A stretch of 12,299 nt of DNA, taken from Ignavibacteriaceae bacterium (GTDB lineage Bacteria; Bacteroidota; Ignavibacteria; Ignavibacteriales; Ignavibacteriaceae). The stretch lies in NCBI GenBank assembly GCA_022865965.1, contig JALHTS010000673.1, positions 1-12,299 on the forward strand, written 5' to 3'. Positions 1,094 to 9,965 of this stretch are shown piece after piece (the stretch's first letter is position 1; the number at the start of each line of letters is the position of its first letter). The notes beneath the pieces are model-generated. The model ran no database searches and had not been told where the DNA came from. It worked only from the letters and a program-made list of their open reading frames with translations. The position numbers and the translations under genes are program-made.

Positions 1094-2530
1094 TCAAGCT
1101 GCTTTAATCTTTAACTCGGTTTGATGATTAGTGTTGATATCCAATTTTGTAACTATTCTTTTATCAAAAACTCTCTCCTGTGCGTGATGTCTCTGAAATA
1201 TTGATAGCTTGAAGTATATAATTGATCCTAAAACAGTTTTCAGCAAATATTCTTTAACAGAACCATCAAATGATTGAAGCGAAACAAATCTCCACCATCT
1301 CTTTAAAATCTTTCTCCAGGAATAGAATATCTTGATTACTTTTTCATAGTAATAATAAATCTGTTCTTCAGTTAAATGCTTATGTCGGAATAAAACGTGA
1401 TCACCTTCGTAATGAGAAATATCCTTATCCCCAATTCGATTTTCATCAAGCATTTTTTTGTGTAAAGGAGTTCCATAAATCGGAATTGAAATTGATGGAA
1501 GAATTACATTCACTCCGACTTCTTCCAGCTTTTGCGGAAGTGTTTCGTAATACTCGGGTGTATCTTCATCGAGAGCGAACATAAATCCCGCAAACGTTAA
1601 AATGCCTTTTTTATTTAGTTTGTAAAAAAACTCCTTATACTCCTCAACTTTGTTTTGTTTTTTCTCAACATCTCTAAGGCTTTCTTCATTTAAAGATTCC
1701 ATTCCAAGAAAAGACATTCTGCAATTTGCTTTAGCAAGCAACTCTACATATTCATCATCTCTCAAGCATTCTATACTGTACTGAGCTCCTATTGCCCAGA
1801 ACTTTAGTTTAGCTATTTCCTTTAACAGATTTTTTGCATTTATTAAACTTCCGCCAAGGTTATTATCGAGTATCATTGCAGTTTTTCTTTTAAACCAAGA
1901 CAAACCTTTTGTGTTCGTTAAATCTCTAATAACATCTTGAATAGGACGCGTTCTGTAGGGCGCGCGCTTAATATTAAGCTGGCAATAAGTACAAGGATGT
2001 GGGCAGCCACGTGAGGCTTCTGTAACTATTGGTGTAAAATAGTTTGATTCAACAAGGTCATACCTCGGTGCAGGAATGTTATCTAAATCAGGAGCTAAAC
2101 CGGCATCATATTTATTTTTAAGCTTACCTGTTAGCAGATCATTAACCATTTGCGCCCAAACTTTATGAGCCTCACCAACGCAGATAGAATCAAAATATGG
2201 TTCAACTTCATCAGGAAGTGTGGATGCAAACTTACCGCCGCCAATAACCACTTTTCCCATTGCTCTAAATTTGGATGCAACTTCGTAGGCGTGTGGAGAT
2301 AAGTAATCCATAAAGCTTATTGCAATAAAATCTGCGTCAGTGTTGTAATCAATCGGGCGAACCATTTCGTGAAGAACTTCAACTTCTACTTCAGGTGGAG
2401 TTAAAGCAGCAAGTAAAATTCCCGGCAATGGTGGTGCTGGATTTTTTGCATAGTATGGTTTTTCATCTAAAAGATTCTGAAATAAAACTATAATTAAAAG
2501 TTTTGGCCTGGATTTAATTTGCATTTTCAT
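1094..2530 (-). CDS. B12-binding-domain radical SAM enzyme
   Basis: This 478-residue protein has an N-terminal cobalamin-binding-like Rossmann domain (about residues 10-135, with VVIGGGKFASTLPDEVE at 94-110 and the ICVGEA loop) and the usual IPAPRYDL linker. A radical SAM core follows, with the cluster motif CPHPCTYC (Cys176, Cys180, Cys183; C-x3-C-x2-C). The C-terminal region of about 150 residues resembles the DUF4070-type tail of HpnP/HpnJ-like class B enzymes. Such proteins use SAM and often cobalamin to methylate or rearrange unreactive carbons, for example hopanoid C-2 methylation by HpnP. It is last in its transcription unit, 27 nt after the alpha-oxoamine synthase gene, so it probably acts on the lipid-like product of the cluster. 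AAGGA lies upstream of ATG 2530; the second ATG, two codons on, is an alternative start. The substrate is unknown. Confidence 0.85.
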   Translation of the reverse strand: MKMQIKSRPKLLIIVLFQNLLDEKPYYAKNPAPPLPGILLAALTPPEVEVEVLHEMVRPIDYNTDADFIAISFMDYLSPHAYEVASKFRAMGKVVIGGGKFASTLPDEVEPYFDSICVGEAHKVWAQMVNDLLTGKLKNKYDAGLAPDLDNIPAPRYDLVESNYFTPIVTEASRGCPHPCTYCQLNIKRAPYRTRPIQDVIRDLTNTKGLSWFKRKTAMILDNNLGGSLINAKNLLKEIAKLKFWAIGAQYSIECLRDDEYVELLAKANCRMSFLGMESLNEESLRDVEKKQNKVEEYKEFFYKLNKKGILTFAGFMFALDEDTPEYYETLPQKLEEVGVNVILPSISIPIYGTPLHKKMLDENRIGDKDISHYEGDHVLFRHKHLTEEQIYYYYEKVIKIFYSWRKILKRWWRFVSLQSFDGSVKEYLLKTVLGSIIYFKLSIFQRHHAQERVFDKRIVTKLDINTNHQTELKIKAA

Positions 2531-2557: not shown

Positions 2558-3865
2558 TCACATTGCCTTTAAGATTGATGATTCGGGTCTATTAGTTTCG
2601 TATTCAGTCCAAATTTCTTCAACTACTTCAACAAGTTTATCTATGTCTTCTTTTGTATGGTTTGCTGTAATACTGATACGAAATCTCTGTTGTGAAACTG
2701 GTACTGCAGGATATTCAATTGAGTTTATAAAAATTCCTCTTTCGTGAAATTTGTAAGCAGCATTTCTTATGTTCATTTCCATCGGCACTCTTAATGGAAT
2801 GATTGGTGTTTCACTTGAAACATTAAAACCAATGTTATTTAAAAGCTTTGCTGCATATCTTACATTGGATCTAAGTGAGTTTAATATTGATGGATCATTT
2901 TCAAGTAAATCCAATCCTGCAAGAACTGATGCAATTGTAAGAGGAGAGATTGAAGCGGAGAACATATATGATCTTGCGAAGAATCTTAAGTAATCAACTA
3001 TCGGTTTTGAAGCAGTAACAAATCCACCGGTAACTGCAAAAGATTTACTGAATGTTCCCATCGTAATATCAATTTCATTTTCTAAATCAAAATAATCACC
3101 TGACCCGCCACCGTGGTTTCCAATCGTCCCTGTTCCGTGTGCGTCATCAACTAATAAAATTGCATCGTATTGTTTGCAAACGGCTACTATCTCATCAAGT
3201 GGAGCGATATCTCCATCCATTGAATAAACACCTTCAACTCCCACATAAATATTTTTTGGATTTATTTTTCTTGCGTCTTCTAATTTTGCTTTTAAGTTTT
3301 CAACATTATTATGAAGAAAATGAATTCCGCGTGCGTTACACATTTTTAATCCGTCATAAAAAGATGCGTGGCTGTATTGATCATACACAACATAATCATC
3401 GGGACCAACCAAAGCGGAAACCAATCCAACGTTTGCACCATATCCGCTTGAAAAGATTAAAGCATCTTCTGCACCTTTTAATGATGCTAATCTTTCTTCT
3501 AACTCTTTGTGGATTTTTGTGTAGCCGTTAAGTAATGGAGGTCCGCCAATACCAATACCATATTTTTCAATTGCTGTTTTTACATACTCTTTTATGTAAG
3601 GATGATTAGCGAATCCCAAATAGTTATTTGATCCGAACATCAACATTTTTCTTGTGATGCCTAAATATTCATCGTAAACATCCACTTCACGATCAGATGG
3701 ACTTGATATACATCTTAGGTGCAGCATTTGCTTATTGCTTGATAAACTTTCAAGGAATTCTCCAAAGAAGTTTACTCTATCCGTTAGAGGCATTCTTCTT
3801 CCTCTCAAAAGAATATCTCTAAGATCAAAATTTTCACCACCTAAATATTCTTGCTTTGCTGACAT
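2558..3865 (-). CDS. Alpha-oxoamine synthase (BioF/KBL/serine palmitoyltransferase family)
   Basis: This 435-residue PLP enzyme belongs to the fold-type I family that condenses an acyl thioester with an amino acid, releasing CO2. Visible hallmarks are FGSNNYLGFANHP (78-89), GYGAN (141-145), the PLP-stacking His166 in YSHAS, the DDAHGTG motif with Asp240 and His243, and the PLP lysine Lys274 in GTFSKSFA. An N-terminal extension of about 70 residues makes it longer than typical BioF or KBL (about 385-400) and closer to bacterial serine palmitoyltransferase or cysteate acyltransferase. Biotin-pathway neighbours are absent and lipid-type genes are present, so a role in making a long-chain amino-ketone is favoured over biotin or threonine metabolism. 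The ribosome binding site is weak (GTGAG). It heads its own unit with a promoter at 3919-3979. The amino acid substrate cannot be read from the sequence. Confidence 0.85.
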   Translation of the reverse strand: MSAKQEYLGGENFDLRDILLRGRRMPLTDRVNFFGEFLESLSSNKQMLHLRCISSPSDREVDVYDEYLGITRKMLMFGSNNYLGFANHPYIKEYVKTAIEKYGIGIGGPPLLNGYTKIHKELEERLASLKGAEDALIFSSGYGANVGLVSALVGPDDYVVYDQYSHASFYDGLKMCNARGIHFLHNNVENLKAKLEDARKINPKNIYVGVEGVYSMDGDIAPLDEIVAVCKQYDAILLVDDAHGTGTIGNHGGGSGDYFDLENEIDITMGTFSKSFAVTGGFVTASKPIVDYLRFFARSYMFSASISPLTIASVLAGLDLLENDPSILNSLRSNVRYAAKLLNNIGFNVSSETPIIPLRVPMEMNIRNAAYKFHERGIFINSIEYPAVPVSQQRFRISITANHTKEDIDKLVEVVEEIWTEYETNRPESSILKAM

Positions 3866-3918
3866 TTTATTTGCTCACTTTCTTGTCTTGTGTTACATCT
3901 TTGATTTCTGGTAGAAAA

Positions 3919-3979
3919 CTAATATGATTTTGAAAGAAAGGTGTCAGTAAGTTCTAATAGAATTGTCAAAAATTTGTCA
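3919..3979 (-). promoter_or_regulatory. Promoter and tandem TGACA activator sites of the alpha-oxoamine synthase unit
   Basis: In the minus-strand sense there are TGACA half-sites at 3975-3979, 3964-3968 and 3942-3946, spaced 11 and 22 bp. The last forms a -35 box CTGACA (3942-3947), followed by a 17-bp spacer and a -10 box TATTAG (3919-3924). The predicted transcript starts about 45 nt before ATG 3865. The same geometry recurs upstream of the UbiA gene, including the identical 14-mer AATTGTCAAAAATT (plus strand, 3961-3974). Phased 11-bp direct repeats are typical of OmpR/PhoB-family response regulators. The regulator identity is inferred. Confidence 0.65.
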
Positions 3980-4011
3980 TGAACGATTTAATTAATGGGA
4001 TTTCAACAATA

Positions 4012-4084
4012 ATGTCATTCCCACGAAAGTGGGAATCTATTTGTCTCTTATTTTAGTGGATTCCCGTTTTCACGGGAATGACAT
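4012..4084. repeat. 73-bp MITE-like palindromic element with two dRS3-like hairpins
   Basis: Terminal inverted repeats ATGTCATTCCC (4012-4022) and GGGAATGACAT (4074-4084) match perfectly over 11 bp. Inside are two 20-bp units of the form ATTCCC-N8-GGGAAT (4017-4036 and 4060-4079). Each can form a hairpin with a GAAA loop: CCCAC/GTGGG in one and CCCGT/ACGGG in the other (the latter on the minus strand). The stem differences are compensatory, so hairpin shape is kept. The unit shape equals the dRS3 repeat described in Neisseria and similar 'GTCATTCCCGCGAAAGCGGGAAT' repeats common in other bacteria. It sits between the two halves of the lipid cluster. Confidence 0.8.
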
Positions 4085-4119
4085 CTGGAAAGAGAAAAAT
4101 TATCAAGCTTTACGTTTAT

Positions 4120-5160
4120 TTAGTTTTTTAGCTCTTGATCAATCTCCAGCAATTTTTGTAGATATTTGAATGGACTAAAGTCTTTTTCAAAAGTTAAGTT
4201 TCTAATTTTCTCTGTATCCAAACTTTGCTCTTGGTTGTAAAGATTAAGAGAAATTTTTTGATCTTCAGTTGCCTCACCCAAATAAATTGGTTTTAGATAT
4301 AAATGACAAGCTTCTTTTAGAAAACCTAATTTCTTTTCAGCTGGGATAGTAAACAGCAATTCAAATTCGCCATGTTCTCCGGCAAGCAGCAACCATATGG
4401 GTAAATGATTGTTGCCGAATAATTGCTCTGATGAGCGATCAATAACTTTATCCCAATCGTTGCGGAACTTAAACCCAACATTATTTAGTCTCATCAATTG
4501 ATCTAGTGAAGAAAGTATTCCATCACTGGTGTCAATACAACTTGATGAATATTTTTTCAGAATGTTTCCCCACTCTAGTTTTGCCGCCGGATGATAAACA
4601 AATTGAGAATCATTCTTACTGAATAATTTTTGAAATGCATACGCATTTCCAGTCCCAACTGTACCACTAGTATAAATTTTATCACCAGCTTTGCAGCCAA
4701 CTCTCTTTAAGTATTTTCCTTTTTCGATTGTACCGATTGCACAACCCGATATAATTAACTCATCACCAAAGTTTGTATCCCCGCCAAGAACAAATGTTCC
4801 ACATTTATTGCAAGCATCATTTATTCCACTCTGAATTTTGTCTAAATACTCTTCAGAAAGTTCATTTGGAAGAATTTGTGAAATAACAAGCCCAATAGGA
4901 GCAGCACTAACGGCAGCAAGATCGCTCATATTAACCATCACGCTCATCCAGCCGATTTGATAAGGATCGGAATACAAACCGGTTTTTATTTCTTCAGAAA
5001 TTGTGTCAATAGTAATAGCTAAATCGTAAGGAGAGTTATCAAGTTTAATAATCTCTGCATCAGTTTCGTGAACTTTGTTCAATTGTTTAGGTGAACGATG
5101 AAATGATTTAGTGAGATCATTTATTATCTTGTTTTCAATTATGTCTTTTAATTGGTGCAT
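4120..5160 (-). CDS. ThiL/AIR-synthase (PurM) superfamily protein, divergent kinase-like
   Basis: This 346-residue protein has the order of motifs of thiamine-monophosphate kinase: an acidic loop (HETDAE, 31-36, where ThiL has GDDCA), TIDTISEEI (50-58), DPYQIGWMSVMVNMSDLAA (65-83), LGGDTN (125-130), DTSDGI (210-215) and GEHGEFELLFTI (261-272). The last segment replaces ThiL's GEDYEL with an insertion, and the first loop is altered too, so it is probably not the housekeeping ThiL. Superfamily members bind ATP at an intersubunit site and phosphorylate or activate small substrates. Its start overlaps the lipid kinase stop by 13 nt, which implies translational coupling in the UbiA operon. I infer an ATP-dependent step on a pathway intermediate; a moonlighting ThiL is the alternative. 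Confidence 0.75.
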   Translation of the reverse strand: MHQLKDIIENKIINDLTKSFHRSPKQLNKVHETDAEIIKLDNSPYDLAITIDTISEEIKTGLYSDPYQIGWMSVMVNMSDLAAVSAAPIGLVISQILPNELSEEYLDKIQSGINDACNKCGTFVLGGDTNFGDELIISGCAIGTIEKGKYLKRVGCKAGDKIYTSGTVGTGNAYAFQKLFSKNDSQFVYHPAAKLEWGNILKKYSSSCIDTSDGILSSLDQLMRLNNVGFKFRNDWDKVIDRSSEQLFGNNHLPIWLLLAGEHGEFELLFTIPAEKKLGFLKEACHLYLKPIYLGEATEDQKISLNLYNQEQSLDTEKIRNLTFEKDFSPFKYLQKLLEIDQELKN

Positions 5161-6080
5161 ATATTTAAATACCTATTTAGGATTGAAAACTCAGCGTAGT
5201 TGGTTTTAATAATCTCTCCATCAAACTCAACTAGGAAGTCATTCTTTGCCGTTACCTTTATTTTAGATGTTTTACAATACTTTGTTTTTTCGTTATTAGG
5301 AAAAACCTTCTTGCTTAAAGACTTTAAAAAATTTATCAGATCTAGCTTGTTCATAGAGTGAGTAAGATAAATATCGTATAATCCATTTTTATAATTTGCT
5401 TCACAGGGATAGGAAAGATCGCCTGAGATGTTAGGATTCTTAATGATTGACAAGTTTGAAATCGGGAAAGAATATGTTTCATAAGAATCAAAAATAATTT
5501 TTACATCAAAATTTTTATAGGAAAATATTGTCTTAATAGCTGCATAAATAATAGCAATGCTGGTGAAATGCTTTTTTAGAAAATTCAAAATTTTATCTGG
5601 CTTGTTAAACAGATCATTTGCCTCAGCAGTAACACCTATGCTTGCATTTAATAGAAAATATTTATGTAAAATCTGAGTTCCAGATTTGTACTTAATTACC
5701 CCAACATCTCTTAATTGTGAGTCATTAAAATTCAGTTTTATCGGAATTCTATTTACTAAGTTTACCTCTTTATTTGGTTTGTGAAAATCATTGCTTGAGC
5801 CAATGCCAATTGCGCCGATCTTAAATTTCTTTATCTCATGAGGGTTAGTTGCATTAATTAAATCATTAATGAATAAATTTAATGTTCCATCTCCGCCTGC
5901 GATTATAAAATCCTTTTCAGAATCCTGTATTGATTCGTTAATTATACTGTCTATAATATTATTGCTATGAATATCAACTACTTTAGCATCCTTAAACTTT
6001 TTAAAGATAGCAGTCTTAACTAGTTCCCATTTTCTACTAGCACTTCCACAGCCGGCGTATGTATTTAGTAAAAGATACAT
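5148..6080 (-). CDS. Lipid kinase with diacylglycerol/sphingosine kinase catalytic domain
   Basis: This 310-residue protein carries the DAGK catalytic signature GGDGT (62-66) after a beta-strand DFIIA, the GxGSxNDF loop (GSSNDF, 94-99; usually GTGNDFAR), a core FLLNASIG segment and the conserved C-terminal FDGE (286-289). The family, which includes DgkB, YegS and sphingosine/ceramide kinases, transfers the ATP gamma-phosphate to a lipid hydroxyl. The short N-terminus begins directly at strand 1 (MYLLLNTYAG; usual N-P-x-S/A-G here NTYAG). ATG 6080 lies 1 nt after the UbiA stop, so the two are co-translated. No membrane span is seen, so a peripheral membrane enzyme is expected. The phosphorylated lipid is unknown; with UbiA and an SPT-like enzyme nearby, a prenyl alcohol, diacylglycerol or sphingoid-like base are all possible. 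Confidence 0.85.
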   Translation of the reverse strand: MYLLLNTYAGCGSASRKWELVKTAIFKKFKDAKVVDIHSNNIIDSIINESIQDSEKDFIIAGGDGTLNLFINDLINATNPHEIKKFKIGAIGIGSSNDFHKPNKEVNLVNRIPIKLNFNDSQLRDVGVIKYKSGTQILHKYFLLNASIGVTAEANDLFNKPDKILNFLKKHFTSIAIIYAAIKTIFSYKNFDVKIIFDSYETYSFPISNLSIIKNPNISGDLSYPCEANYKNGLYDIYLTHSMNKLDLINFLKSLSKKVFPNNEKTKYCKTSKIKVTAKNDFLVEFDGEIIKTNYAEFSILNRYLNICTN

Positions 6081-6081
6081 T

Positions 6082-7071
6082 TTATATCTGATTTTTTGCT
6101 GGTCTGAATATCATTGTTAGGTTAAAAAACACATAGAAAATGATCATTGGAATAATCCACTCACCTTTGTTTGAGACAATTATTGAAGTAAGTAATAAAA
6201 TGTAAGCGTGTACAGATAGACTAATCGCTTTGCTCGATCCATCATCATTTTTTATTAAATGCACAAACGCCTGACATAAAAACATAGCTACAATTCCAAT
6301 GGCAAGAATTATTGTTGCATAGGGCAACTGCTCTAATAGTTTATCCAATGAATTTGAATAAGTAAAAACTGATATGGTTGATATTACTGTTAGCACCCCA
6401 AAAATATTAGAAGCAATTGATGACATTCTTCTTCCGAACACAACGAGAAAAGTATTGTAGCCTGTTTCTCTATCTGCTTCTACATCTTTAAAGTATCCAA
6501 CAAGAACAAAGTTTGCATATCCCCAATAGACAGCACTTAAACTGTAAACCAATTTATGATTTCCAGTAATCAGTTCTAATTCTGAACCGCAAAGAAAAGC
6601 CATAAGGAACAATACACCAACAATCCAGGCGTTATAAAACGGTCCTGCCCAAAATTTTCTTTTAAAGTAAGTATAAGTTGCTAATCCCAGTCCTGAAACG
6701 ATTCCCAGTAAAAGATTAATTGGATTGTAAATTGAAAAAATGCTAATACATAAAATCAAACCGATTATACTTATTGAAAAAACTTGTGATTTGGAAACTA
6801 TGCCTTGCGTTAAGGGCCGGTATGGAGAAGATATGGAATCGGTGTCAGTTTGAAAAACATCCGTGAGCGCTTGTCCAAATCCATACGATAAAAAAGAGGC
6901 AAGAAAAATTAAAATAGATTTTGAAATCGGTAACTCATCGACGAAAGACATTCCGCAAATTCCTGTTACTCCGGAAACAAAGAGAAGATATGGCCTCATT
7001 GTTATGAGATAATCTTTTACAAATTCTATTGAGAAAGTTTTATGATGTTTGCTTGTTATTACTGTTTTCAT
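6082..7071 (-). CDS. UbiA-family membrane prenyltransferase
   Basis: This 329-residue integral membrane protein has about eight or nine hydrophobic helices. The first Asp-rich motif region reads TDVFQTDTDSISSPYRPLTQG (starting at residue 70), aligning with canonical NDxxDxxxD...P.RP; Asp71 and Asp78 are kept, but the Asn is Thr70 and the middle Asp is Gln74. The second motif is intact: YFKDVEADRETG with Asp196 and Asp200. UbiA enzymes transfer a prenyl group from a prenyl diphosphate to aromatic or other acceptors in quinone, chlorophyll, heme and archaeal lipid synthesis. Quinone or chlorophyll pathway genes are absent here, and this gene starts an operon with a lipid kinase and a ThiL-like enzyme, so a lipid product is plausible. 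Its promoter with tandem half-sites is at 7120-7180. A weak AAAGAG precedes the ATG. Confidence 0.85.
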   Translation of the reverse strand: MKTVITSKHHKTFSIEFVKDYLITMRPYLLFVSGVTGICGMSFVDELPISKSILIFLASFLSYGFGQALTDVFQTDTDSISSPYRPLTQGIVSKSQVFSISIIGLILCISIFSIYNPINLLLGIVSGLGLATYTYFKRKFWAGPFYNAWIVGVLFLMAFLCGSELELITGNHKLVYSLSAVYWGYANFVLVGYFKDVEADRETGYNTFLVVFGRRMSSIASNIFGVLTVISTISVFTYSNSLDKLLEQLPYATIILAIGIVAMFLCQAFVHLIKNDDGSSKAISLSVHAYILLLTSIIVSNKGEWIIPMIIFYVFFNLTMIFRPAKNQI

Positions 7072-7119
7072 CTCTTTATTCTTTATTGATTAGACAATGT
7101 TGTCGTTTCTGGTCAGAAT

Positions 7120-7180
7120 CTAATCAAGCCTCAAGGTAAAGTTGTCAGCAATAAAACTCAGAGTTGTCACAAAATTGTCA
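7120..7180 (-). promoter_or_regulatory. Promoter and tandem TGACA activator sites of the UbiA operon
   Basis: In the minus-strand sense, TGACA half-sites lie at 7176-7180, 7165-7169 and 7143-7147 (11- and 22-bp steps). The proximal one makes the -35 box CTGACA (7143-7148), with a 17-bp spacer to the -10 box GATTAG (7120-7125). Spacing and distance to the start codon (about 72 bp versus 77 bp) match the promoter at 3919-3979. Both share the 14-mer AATTGTCAAAAATT (here 7173-7186). Two independent copies of one layout make this unlikely to be chance. Confidence 0.65.
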
Positions 7181-7194
7181 AAAATTACCAGCGC

Positions 7195-8427: not shown

Positions 8428-9468
8428 ATGTTTGGTGAAAGATTAAAATCCGCCAGAAAAATGGCTGGTTACTCACTTGAGGAATTAGCAAATAAATTAG
8501 GTGACATAACTAAGCAAGCTCTGAGTAACTATGAAAATAATAAAAGAAATCCTGATAGTGCAATTATTATCAGGTTGGCAAAAATATTTGGCGTTAAGCC
8601 AGATTATTTTTTGAGGAATTCGAATGTCAAATTTGAAAACTTTGAGTACAGAAAAAGATCAAAAATATTAAAGAAAGAGATCAATAGGATTGAAGAAAAA
8701 ACTATAGACTATTTGGAGAGGTTTATAGAATTAGAACAAATAATGGGATTTGATGAGAAATTTGTGAATCCTTTGAAAAATATAGAGATCTCTGACGGAA
8801 GAGGTGCTGAGACTGCGGCAGAAAAGCTAAGGGAAGAATGGAGATTGGGTTTGAACCCTATCAAAAATTTGATTGAAACCCTTGAAGAAAAAGAAATCAG
8901 AATTTTTGAAATTGATGCGGATAAAGGTTTTGATGGATTAGCTGTTTATAGTGGAGCAATACCAATTATTATCGTTAATAAAGACATAGATGATATTGTA
9001 AGAAAACGAATGACCATAGCCCACGAACTTGGACACTTACTTTTAAAATTGAATAGTAAATTAAATTCAAAAGAAAAGGAAAGATTTTGTTACAGGTTTG
9101 CAGGAGCATTTTTAATTCCCAAACAAGTTATGACTAATGGACTTGGTGAAAACAGAACTAAGGTTATTCTAAGTGAATTAGAACACTTAAAATTGGAGTA
9201 TGGTATTTCTATACTGGCTTTGATGAGAAGAGCAAGAGACCTGGGGATAATTACTTCACAGAAATACAGAAACTTTTGCATTAGAGTAAAAAAAGAGGGA
9301 TGGGGAAAATTTGAGGTAGGGAAGTATGAAGCTGAAGAAAAACCGATTAGAGACAAACATCTATTATATAGAGCATTAGCTGAAGAAATTATCAGTGCAA
9401 GTAAGGCTGCCAGTATCGCTAATATAACTGTGAGTGAGCTAGAGAATGAAGTTGAATTGGTAGTATGA
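8428..9468 (+). CDS. Xre-family HTH regulator fused to ImmA/IrrE zinc protease domain
   Basis: Of 346 residues, 3-60 form a Xre/Cro HTH (FGERLKSARKMAGYSLEELA, then TKQALSNYENNKRNPD). Residues about 130-260 form an ImmA/IrrE (COG2856) metallopeptidase with HELGH (199-203) in RMTIAHELGHLL. The downstream segment KERFCYRFAGAFLIP places a third acidic ligand in the family's E..xC..FA position. Family members such as ImmA of ICEBs1 cleave a partner repressor or antitoxin. The stop overlaps the next ATG (ATGA, 9465-9468), so the PIN protein is translationally coupled. A C-terminal region of about 90 residues (about 255-346) is extra. The ribosome binding site is AAAAAGG. The gene is rich in AGA and ATA codons and AT, as is common in mobile cassettes. 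The likely role is antitoxin or autoregulator of the pair. Confidence 0.85.
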   Translation: MFGERLKSARKMAGYSLEELANKLGDITKQALSNYENNKRNPDSAIIIRLAKIFGVKPDYFLRNSNVKFENFEYRKRSKILKKEINRIEEKTIDYLERFIELEQIMGFDEKFVNPLKNIEISDGRGAETAAEKLREEWRLGLNPIKNLIETLEEKEIRIFEIDADKGFDGLAVYSGAIPIIIVNKDIDDIVRKRMTIAHELGHLLLKLNSKLNSKEKERFCYRFAGAFLIPKQVMTNGLGENRTKVILSELEHLKLEYGISILALMRRARDLGIITSQKYRNFCIRVKKEGWGKFEVGKYEAEEKPIRDKHLLYRALAEEIISASKAASIANITVSELENEVELVV

Positions 9469-9965
9469 AATTACTGATAAGCGATACTAATATATTTATA
9501 GATTTAATAAATATTGATTTATTAGATACATTTTTAAAACTTGAATATGAATTTCATACTACAGATTTTGTGATAAATGAACTTAGTGATGAACAGAATA
9601 AAATTTTAGCAGAAAAAATTAACAAAAATAAGATAATAATAGATAAAGCAGATGAAAATGATTTAAGTGAAATTATTGAACTTCAATCAGAAAAGAGATC
9701 ACTTTCAATCATTGATTTTAGTGTTTTCTACTTTGCTAAAAAACAAAATGCTATGATATTAACCGGAGATAAATCATTCAGAAATTATGCTACTGAACAG
9801 AAATTTGAAGTAAAGGGAGTACTTTGGATCCTAGATCAAATAATAGATACTGGTTTACTAGGTAGCGCAGATATGATTAGTAGATTAGAGACACTAATGA
9901 TAACAAATAAAAGATTACCTAAAGAAGAATGCGATAAAAGATTAAAAAAATGGGGAAAGGGTTGA
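9465..9965 (+). CDS. PIN-domain nuclease-like protein, partner of the Xre-ImmA gene
   Basis: This 166-residue protein has the PIN acidic residues in order: Asp7 in SDTNIFIDL, Glu39 in VINELSDE, Asp84 in SIIDFSVF and Asp102 in ILTGDKSFRNYA. PIN domains are Mg-dependent RNases and form the toxin in many type II toxin-antitoxin pairs. After the core (about residues 1-125) a C-terminal tail of about 40 residues is Lys-rich (KRLPKEECDKRLKKWGKG). It overlaps the protease gene by 4 nt and shares its transcription. Most PIN toxins pair with small DNA-binding antitoxins; pairing with a Xre-protease fusion suggests that the upstream protein serves as antitoxin, or as a switch that releases the nuclease. 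No clear terminator follows. Toxicity is inferred, not shown by sequence. Confidence 0.8.
   Translation: MKLLISDTNIFIDLINIDLLDTFLKLEYEFHTTDFVINELSDEQNKILAEKINKNKIIIDKADENDLSEIIELQSEKRSLSIIDFSVFYFAKKQNAMILTGDKSFRNYATEQKFEVKGVLWILDQIIDTGLLGSADMISRLETLMITNKRLPKEECDKRLKKWGKG

Follow-up and report, generated by a model that had tools for sequence, protein, structure and literature searches.

The window, which is the whole 12,299-nucleotide stretch of DNA analysed here (contig JALHTS010000673.1 of assembly GCA_022865965.1, from an Ignavibacteriaceae bacterium), carries a lipid gene cluster in two putative units, each preceded by an array of 11-bp direct repeats. These arrays, their promoters and the protein that probably reads them are the subject of this analysis. 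The genes and arrays are as follows.

6082..7071, minus strand: UbiA-family prenyltransferase gene (PF01040)
5148..6080, minus strand: DAGK/YegS-type lipid kinase gene (PF00781, PF19279)
4120..5160, minus strand: ThiL-like (AIR synthase-related) gene (PF00586; thiL match of 162 bits, cutoff of 184 not reached)
2558..3865, minus strand: alpha-oxoamine synthase (AONS) gene, serine palmitoyltransferase/BioF-like (PF00155; best NCBIfam match SerpalmtaseCFB, 375.7 bits, cutoff 640)
1094..2530, minus strand: radical SAM gene (PF04055)
7143..7180, minus strand: candidate operator array of the UbiA gene, with units from 7180, 7169, 7158 (decayed, AGTTT) and 7147
3942..3979, minus strand: candidate operator array of the AONS gene, with four 11-bp units from 3979, 3968, 3957 (decayed, TTAGA) and 3946

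Repeat arrays at the two promoters

The word TGACA was found on the minus strand at 7176, 7165 and 7143 before the UbiA gene (start 7071) and at 3975, 3964 and 3942 before the AONS gene (start 3865). All six copies, at the steps of 11 and 22 bp described in the initial annotation, were thus recovered, and the 17-bp gap from the proximal copy to TATTAG or GATTAG was likewise as it had given it, as were the ~72 and ~77 bp that separate the promoters from their start codons. The word itself was not enriched, with 26 copies in the window against 23.9 expected, and the special feature is its spacing. The spaced pattern TGACA-N6-TGACA-N17-TGACA had two exact matches in the 3.03 Mb source genome (G000) and its reversed form had none, so that the genome-wide scan led back to the two promoters of the lipid cluster. 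Each array comprises four units, and the 22-bp step marks the third, which has decayed.

Comparison of the two window arrays in register showed identity at 26 of 39 positions. The surrounding sequence differed, as had been claimed: only 7 of 27 bp upstream and 33 of 69 bp downstream were identical. The 14-mer AATTGTCAAAAATT, reported as common to both promoters, was indeed present at 3961 and 7173, but it lies out of register, since it falls in the second repeat unit of one array and in the first of the other. The identical geometry proposed for the two promoters was kept in part only. In L033, the nearest relative with an AONS gene, the AONS array was identical at 36 of 38 bases while the 66 bp upstream matched at only 19, and the two distal UbiA boxes were kept in both L032 and L033, the two nearest relatives. 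The proximal UbiA box (7143) was not: it reads CGACA in L032 and is absent in L033.

The gap that separates the AONS promoter from the end of the ThiL-like gene holds an imperfect inverted repeat (4012-4084, with 26-nt arms that are 85% complementary), and a terminator-like stem is listed within it at 4017-4036. We take this repeat to be a terminator-like or REP/MITE-like element.

Conservation of the candidate operator and its proposed core promoter

A UbiA match at E 1e-15 was present in 14 of 116 genomes, G000 included. The order UbiA-DAGK-ThiL-AONS was kept in all 12 relatives with a long enough stretch. Those relatives that carry a name are metagenome-assembled genomes of Ignavibacteria and other phyla. 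The radical SAM gene came next in nine of the 12; it was not found in L041 and L044 and falls beyond the contig end in L038. Four relatives (L034, L037, L039 and L043; Pfam assignment for L037) carried an SDR-like gene before UbiA. In the comparison of the five cluster proteins with NCBIfam, none of the matches shown reached its own cutoff, and no product is named for the cluster for that reason. The best NCBIfam match of the window UbiA was DGGGP synthase. The window protein resembles the UbiA-superfamily DGGGP synthases of the FCB group in being a UbiA protein of such bacteria (PMC7852524), but its match was far under the cutoff (67 vs 296 bits); the terms "operon" and "gene cluster" are absent from the text of that paper. 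A literature search found no work on this lipid cluster or on serine palmitoyltransferase in Ignavibacteria, and none on TGACA direct repeats with a response regulator in Bacteroidetes.

In the 116 genomes, the exact three-box pattern had six matches in five genomes (G000 included), five of them inside the lipid gene cluster and the sixth in G082. The general form of the candidate operator was a tandem row of three or four 11-bp units, T(G/T)ACA-N6. In the relatives, such rows precede AONS as well as the leading gene of the cluster, UbiA or SDR. The pattern TKACA-N6-TKACA-N6-TGACA gave 99 matches in 36 of the 116 genomes, compared with two for the reversed pattern, so direct repeats at 11-bp steps were present both in the window and in the genome set. 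A matrix of the sites reached at least 8 bits at 25 of 27 target promoters but at only 2 of 144 other upstream regions of the same loci, where the matrix omitted the sites of the tested locus only, kept other loci of the same genome, and used target start codons picked from inspected upstream regions of relatives. The motif is accordingly conserved in orthologous upstream regions, as the annotation had expected. The two target promoters missed were those of UbiA in L033 and of AONS in L041, where the AONS gene starts ~10 bp after ThiL; the two control regions that reached the score were in L035, where an array precedes a 5'-nucleotidase-like gene, and in L037.

An array model built from 70 sites (alignment A3), none from the window or its genome, returned both window arrays among its top five matches in the source genome, for which 150 of 2912 first-look candidates were scored. 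Of the two, the AONS array reached 24.8 bits (E 8e-5) and the UbiA array 19 bits over 7158-7185 (E 0.005); the other three matches were C438:16128, its copy C424:65 and C438:13633. The gapless matrix gave 35.3 for the AONS promoter and 10.9 for the UbiA promoter, whereas simulated sequence (3 Mb, one strand) reached 13.9 at most.

Across 70 named loci, all found through UbiA (973 kb), 51 matrix matches of at least 18 bits were observed in 31 loci, against none in the reversed sequence, and 38 of the 51 lay within 450 bp before a UbiA, AONS or radical SAM gene. Eleven of the 31 matching loci were contigs of relatives already used; the other 20 hold 30 of the matches. Outside Ignavibacteria, loci with arrays included four of Calditrichia (L100-L102, L124), three of Aminicenantes (L133, L141, L146) and one of a Kapaibacterium (L098). 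The idea that the like spacing arose by chance, or by local copying of one promoter onto the other, draws on the shared 14-mer and on the ordinary frequency of TGACA in the window, and it is extremely improbable. Neither version survived: chance is contradicted by the lack of exact matches elsewhere in the genome, by arrays at both promoters in most relatives and by the forward-to-reversed counts (99 vs 2 and 51 vs 0), and copying by the 14-mer being out of register between unlike flanks. The repeat arrays were thus confirmed as real and not a product of chance.

The alignment of sites at the proximal TGACA revealed conserved columns that had not been used for choosing the sites: T 60, A 71, n, n, T 50, T 71 and T 45 at +25 to +31 (n=73), together with a purine in 69 of 73 sites at +37. 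They appear to form TAnnTTt, a -7 element of Bacteroidota type that follows the proximal TGACA at a distance of 20 bp. The set came from 79 rows, only part of the 99 array matches having been fetched; stretch-end sites, shifted copies in one array and identical sites were left out, and the two window sites were added. Five rows were removed by hand, L048 and L174 as duplicate or near-duplicate and L164, L190 and L192 as chance- or simple-repeat-like. The last three were by eye without a -7 element, and since they had been removed beforehand, the fairer count for the element is 71 of 76, not 71 of 73. In the window, the elements are placed as follows.

3914..3921, minus strand: proposed -7 element TAGTTTTC for AONS, following the proximal unit at 20 bp; start predicted at 3909
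7115..7122, minus strand: proposed -7 element TAGATTCT of the UbiA promoter, in the register of the site alignment; start predicted at 7110
7137..7144, minus strand: alternative UbiA -7 element CAACTTTA, in the register set by the box at 7169; start predicted at 7132

The register of CAACTTTA is the one matched in L032 and L033, where the box at 7143 is not kept. A strict pattern of array plus -7 element was found in 14 of 198 genomes of the phylum, with no reversed match; the source genome had no strict match.

With this spacing, the proximal unit spans -37 to -33, which is the place of the Bacteroidota -33 element. The -7 element and a start 4 nt downstream are described in PMC6847099, and in our set TAnnTTt was seen with a purine at the expected distance for the predicted starts, the final G being weak. 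The sites resemble the sigma-ABfr promoter (TTTG / TAnnTTTG) in the position of the proposed -7 element and in the ~4 nt to the predicted start (PMC6847099). They differ in that the operator's proximal unit occupies the -33 place and in two features of the element: its closing T and G are weakly conserved (45 and 21 of 73 sites), and its two middle positions carry G in 19 and 12 of 73 sites, whereas PMC6847099 reports virtually none there. A sigma-70 reading (-35 TTGACA and -10 TATAAT with a spacer of 16-18 bp) was rejected, a simple scan for it listing neither window site (13 found, 16.0 expected). The annotation had taken the proximal TGACA for a -35 box and (T/G)ATTAG for a -10 box; that core promoter did not hold up, its "-10" having been read 3 bp out of frame from the conserved columns TAnnTTt.

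The linked regulator and its kinase

The gene of an OmpR-family response regulator adjoined the cluster in 9 of the 12 relatives (Pfam on four), and Response_reg and Trans_reg_C domains were present in those of L034, L036, L037 and L041. A kinase gene adjoined the regulator in seven of the nine linked loci (Pfam on two, five aligned). In the source genome, one close homologue was found, C438:7347-8021 (348 bits), the sole other match being partial (143 bits). This protein matched the family model over its own length and had OmpR-family NCBIfam matches, and its gene adjoins a histidine kinase gene; contig C438 also carries two of the top array matches, before a secreted 5'-nucleotidase gene and the gene of a 203-residue protein. 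In the regulator tree, it grouped with the cluster-linked regulators (support 95/90) apart from eight paralogue rows, of which one was a 75-residue piece, and G029 (306 bits) grouped with the paralogues.

The array was found in 30 of 38 genomes with the regulator (at least 300 bits) but in only 6 of 78 without it (Fisher p 1e-14, relatedness ignored), with 25 regulator candidates scored per genome and the threshold having been picked after the list was viewed; at 340 bits, the counts were 24 of 31 and 12 of 85. In the regulator genomes, 46 of 83 arrays lay within 25 kb of the regulator gene, and in single-contig genomes the arrays within 30 kb of it were 5 of 5 in G026, 4 of 6 in G061 and 3 of 6 in G002. 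In L124, L133, L141 and L146, the regulator gene ends 63-279 bp before the proximal array box. We consider that both window arrays are operators of a single response regulator of the OmpR/PhoB family, with a probability of about 0.75, and that this regulator is most likely encoded by the gene at C438:7338-8021, and the best reading of the whole is a two-component regulon of envelope and lipid genes that would be wider than the two window units. The single activator on 11-bp direct repeats, suggested earlier for both units, is supported by the cluster-specific and conserved motif and by the linked regulator.

Several findings weigh against this assignment. The regulator is not beside the cluster in L033, L043 and L044, nor in the source genome, and 39 of the 70 UbiA loci, many of them in Eisenbacteria, Gemmatimonadota and WOR-3, had no array of at least 18 bits. 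Eight of the 38 regulator genomes lacked an exact array, only one of five arrays in G008 was near the regulator (p 0.07, not significant), and none of five kinase genes inspected had an array directly upstream. In three Aminicenantes regulators, the recognition helix differs although the arrays look alike. Two further points favour the alternative that a different protein, such as a paralogous OmpR-family regulator, reads the arrays and that the linked regulator has other targets: six genomes have arrays without a regulator at 300 bits, and the recognition helix of six paralogues (RTVDNFI-[LV]KLR) is nearly the same as that of most linked regulators (RTVDN[FY]I). This alternative is unlikely, since related regulators of 200-296 bits are widespread in array-less genomes, more than half of the arrays in regulator genomes lie within 25 kb of the linked regulator, and in four loci of other lineages its gene stands directly before the array.

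In the mechanism that we infer for the linked regulator, a membrane kinase would phosphorylate it in response to a presumed signal, and the phosphorylated protein would bind head-to-tail on consecutive 11-bp T(G/T)ACA-N6 units. Because the proximal unit occupies the -33 element place, the bound regulator would hold RNA polymerase on the weak TAnnTTt -7 element and thus would activate, not repress. Both window units, UbiA-DAGK-ThiL and AONS-radical SAM, would be switched on in concert with further envelope genes, leading to a putative lipid product.

The predicted structure of the kinase has an ~80-residue domain between the first helix and a multi-helix part (mean pLDDT 74.6, pTM 0.45). Searched against PDB, the model had only kinases and related signalling proteins among its 50 best matches and so does not name the sensor. 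Among four kinases examined for a PDZ domain, two passed the cutoff, one was below it and the source-genome kinase had none; that the kinase senses the envelope state is accordingly inferred. Two arrangements were observed beside these genes. At L036:1860-3182, the response regulator is in frame with ~210 upstream residues that have no Pfam family, as a fusion or a chance frame. At L034:10935-11861 and L041:7217-8140, a protein with receiver and guanylate-cyclase domains lies between kinase and regulator, which suggests that this signalling unit also involves a nucleotide second messenger.

The proposed wider regulon and known systems

Arrays also preceded genes of secreted 5'-nucleotidases, a DUF3108 protein, radical SAM proteins, a PLP-dependent decarboxylase, an AMP-binding enzyme, a HEAT-repeat protein and several secreted-looking proteins without a Pfam family; some of the array-preceded genes could be given Pfam or NCBIfam names and many were left without a family. 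In G002, an LCAT-like lipase gene lies three genes downstream of an array. Genomes without UbiA had arrays before relatives of cluster genes, namely a ThiL-like gene (G082, 31% identity), an SDR gene (G058, 40%) and distant lipid kinase genes (G006, 19%; G026, 23%), and arrays before such lone relatives mean that the regulatory link may outlive the cluster. The UbiA-less, array-preceded relatives (ThiL-like, lipid kinases and SDR) are at the following positions.

L285:15157-16173
L283:3170-4102
L195:12947-13870
L206:3744-4625

The 5'-nucleotidases also fit a Pho regulon, in which a PhoB ortholog with PHO boxes would remodel lipids at low phosphate. According to PMC4415409, the E. coli PHO box consists of two 11-nt direct repeat units bound by PhoB in tandem, head-to-tail, with contact to the sigma subunit, and the window arrays share with it the 11-bp direct repeats for a regulator of this family and the word TGACA, the complement of TGTCA in E. 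coli CTGTCAT. PhoB was moreover the best NCBIfam match of the source-genome regulator, which was also the sole PhoB-family match of that genome at E 1e-50. Unlike in E. coli, TGACA in the window reads along the transcribed direction, the units number three or four, and the proposed -7 element is of Bacteroidota type. The regulator match stayed at 214 bits against the PhoB cutoff of 296, and all matches in the nine genomes searched were likewise below that cutoff, an argument that is weak because the cutoff was reached in only 2 of 14 control genomes. In G002, G008, G010 and G019, stronger PhoB-family matches exist beside the linked regulator. None of five PstS genes, the only pst genes in this test, was found with an array within ~1.5 kb, and PstS was not found in G026 and G061, both of which have the regulator and arrays. 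A canonical Pho regulon was rejected on the PhoB cutoff and the PstS genes, and the Pho explanation as a whole is quite improbable.

For the linked regulator, a further parallel is M. tuberculosis PhoP, of the same family. PMC4832192 describes 7-bp direct repeats with a 4-bp spacer, i.e. 11-bp steps, bound by a tandem dimer, and tighter binding to three and four repeats than to two. The 11-bp steps are alike; motif, host and targets are different.

Elsewhere in the window, adjacent genes of an HTH-M78 protein (spr1629 antitoxin-like, below cutoff) and a PIN-domain protein at 8428-9965 resemble a toxin-antitoxin pair.

The kind of system is known, that of OmpR/PhoB-type tandem operators; here it stands at an uncharacterised lipid cluster and has an unusual evolutionary depth, the same operator being kept at the same genes across phyla. 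It is possible, and we propose it tentatively, that in Ignavibacteria, Calditrichia and Aminicenantes an ancient two-component regulon governs a hitherto undescribed pathway of envelope lipids (SDR-UbiA-lipid kinase-ThiL-like-oxoamine synthase-radical SAM), with a kinase whose membrane-adjacent PDZ-like domain may be an envelope sensor, and with the order array, 20 bp, TAnnTTt kept with the genes across phyla. The analysis provides a sequence rule by which activated promoters can be sought in Ignavibacteria and their relatives. For a widespread lipid cluster, it also names a candidate regulator and putatively co-regulated genes and sets out an operator code, and both the signal and the product therefore become testable.

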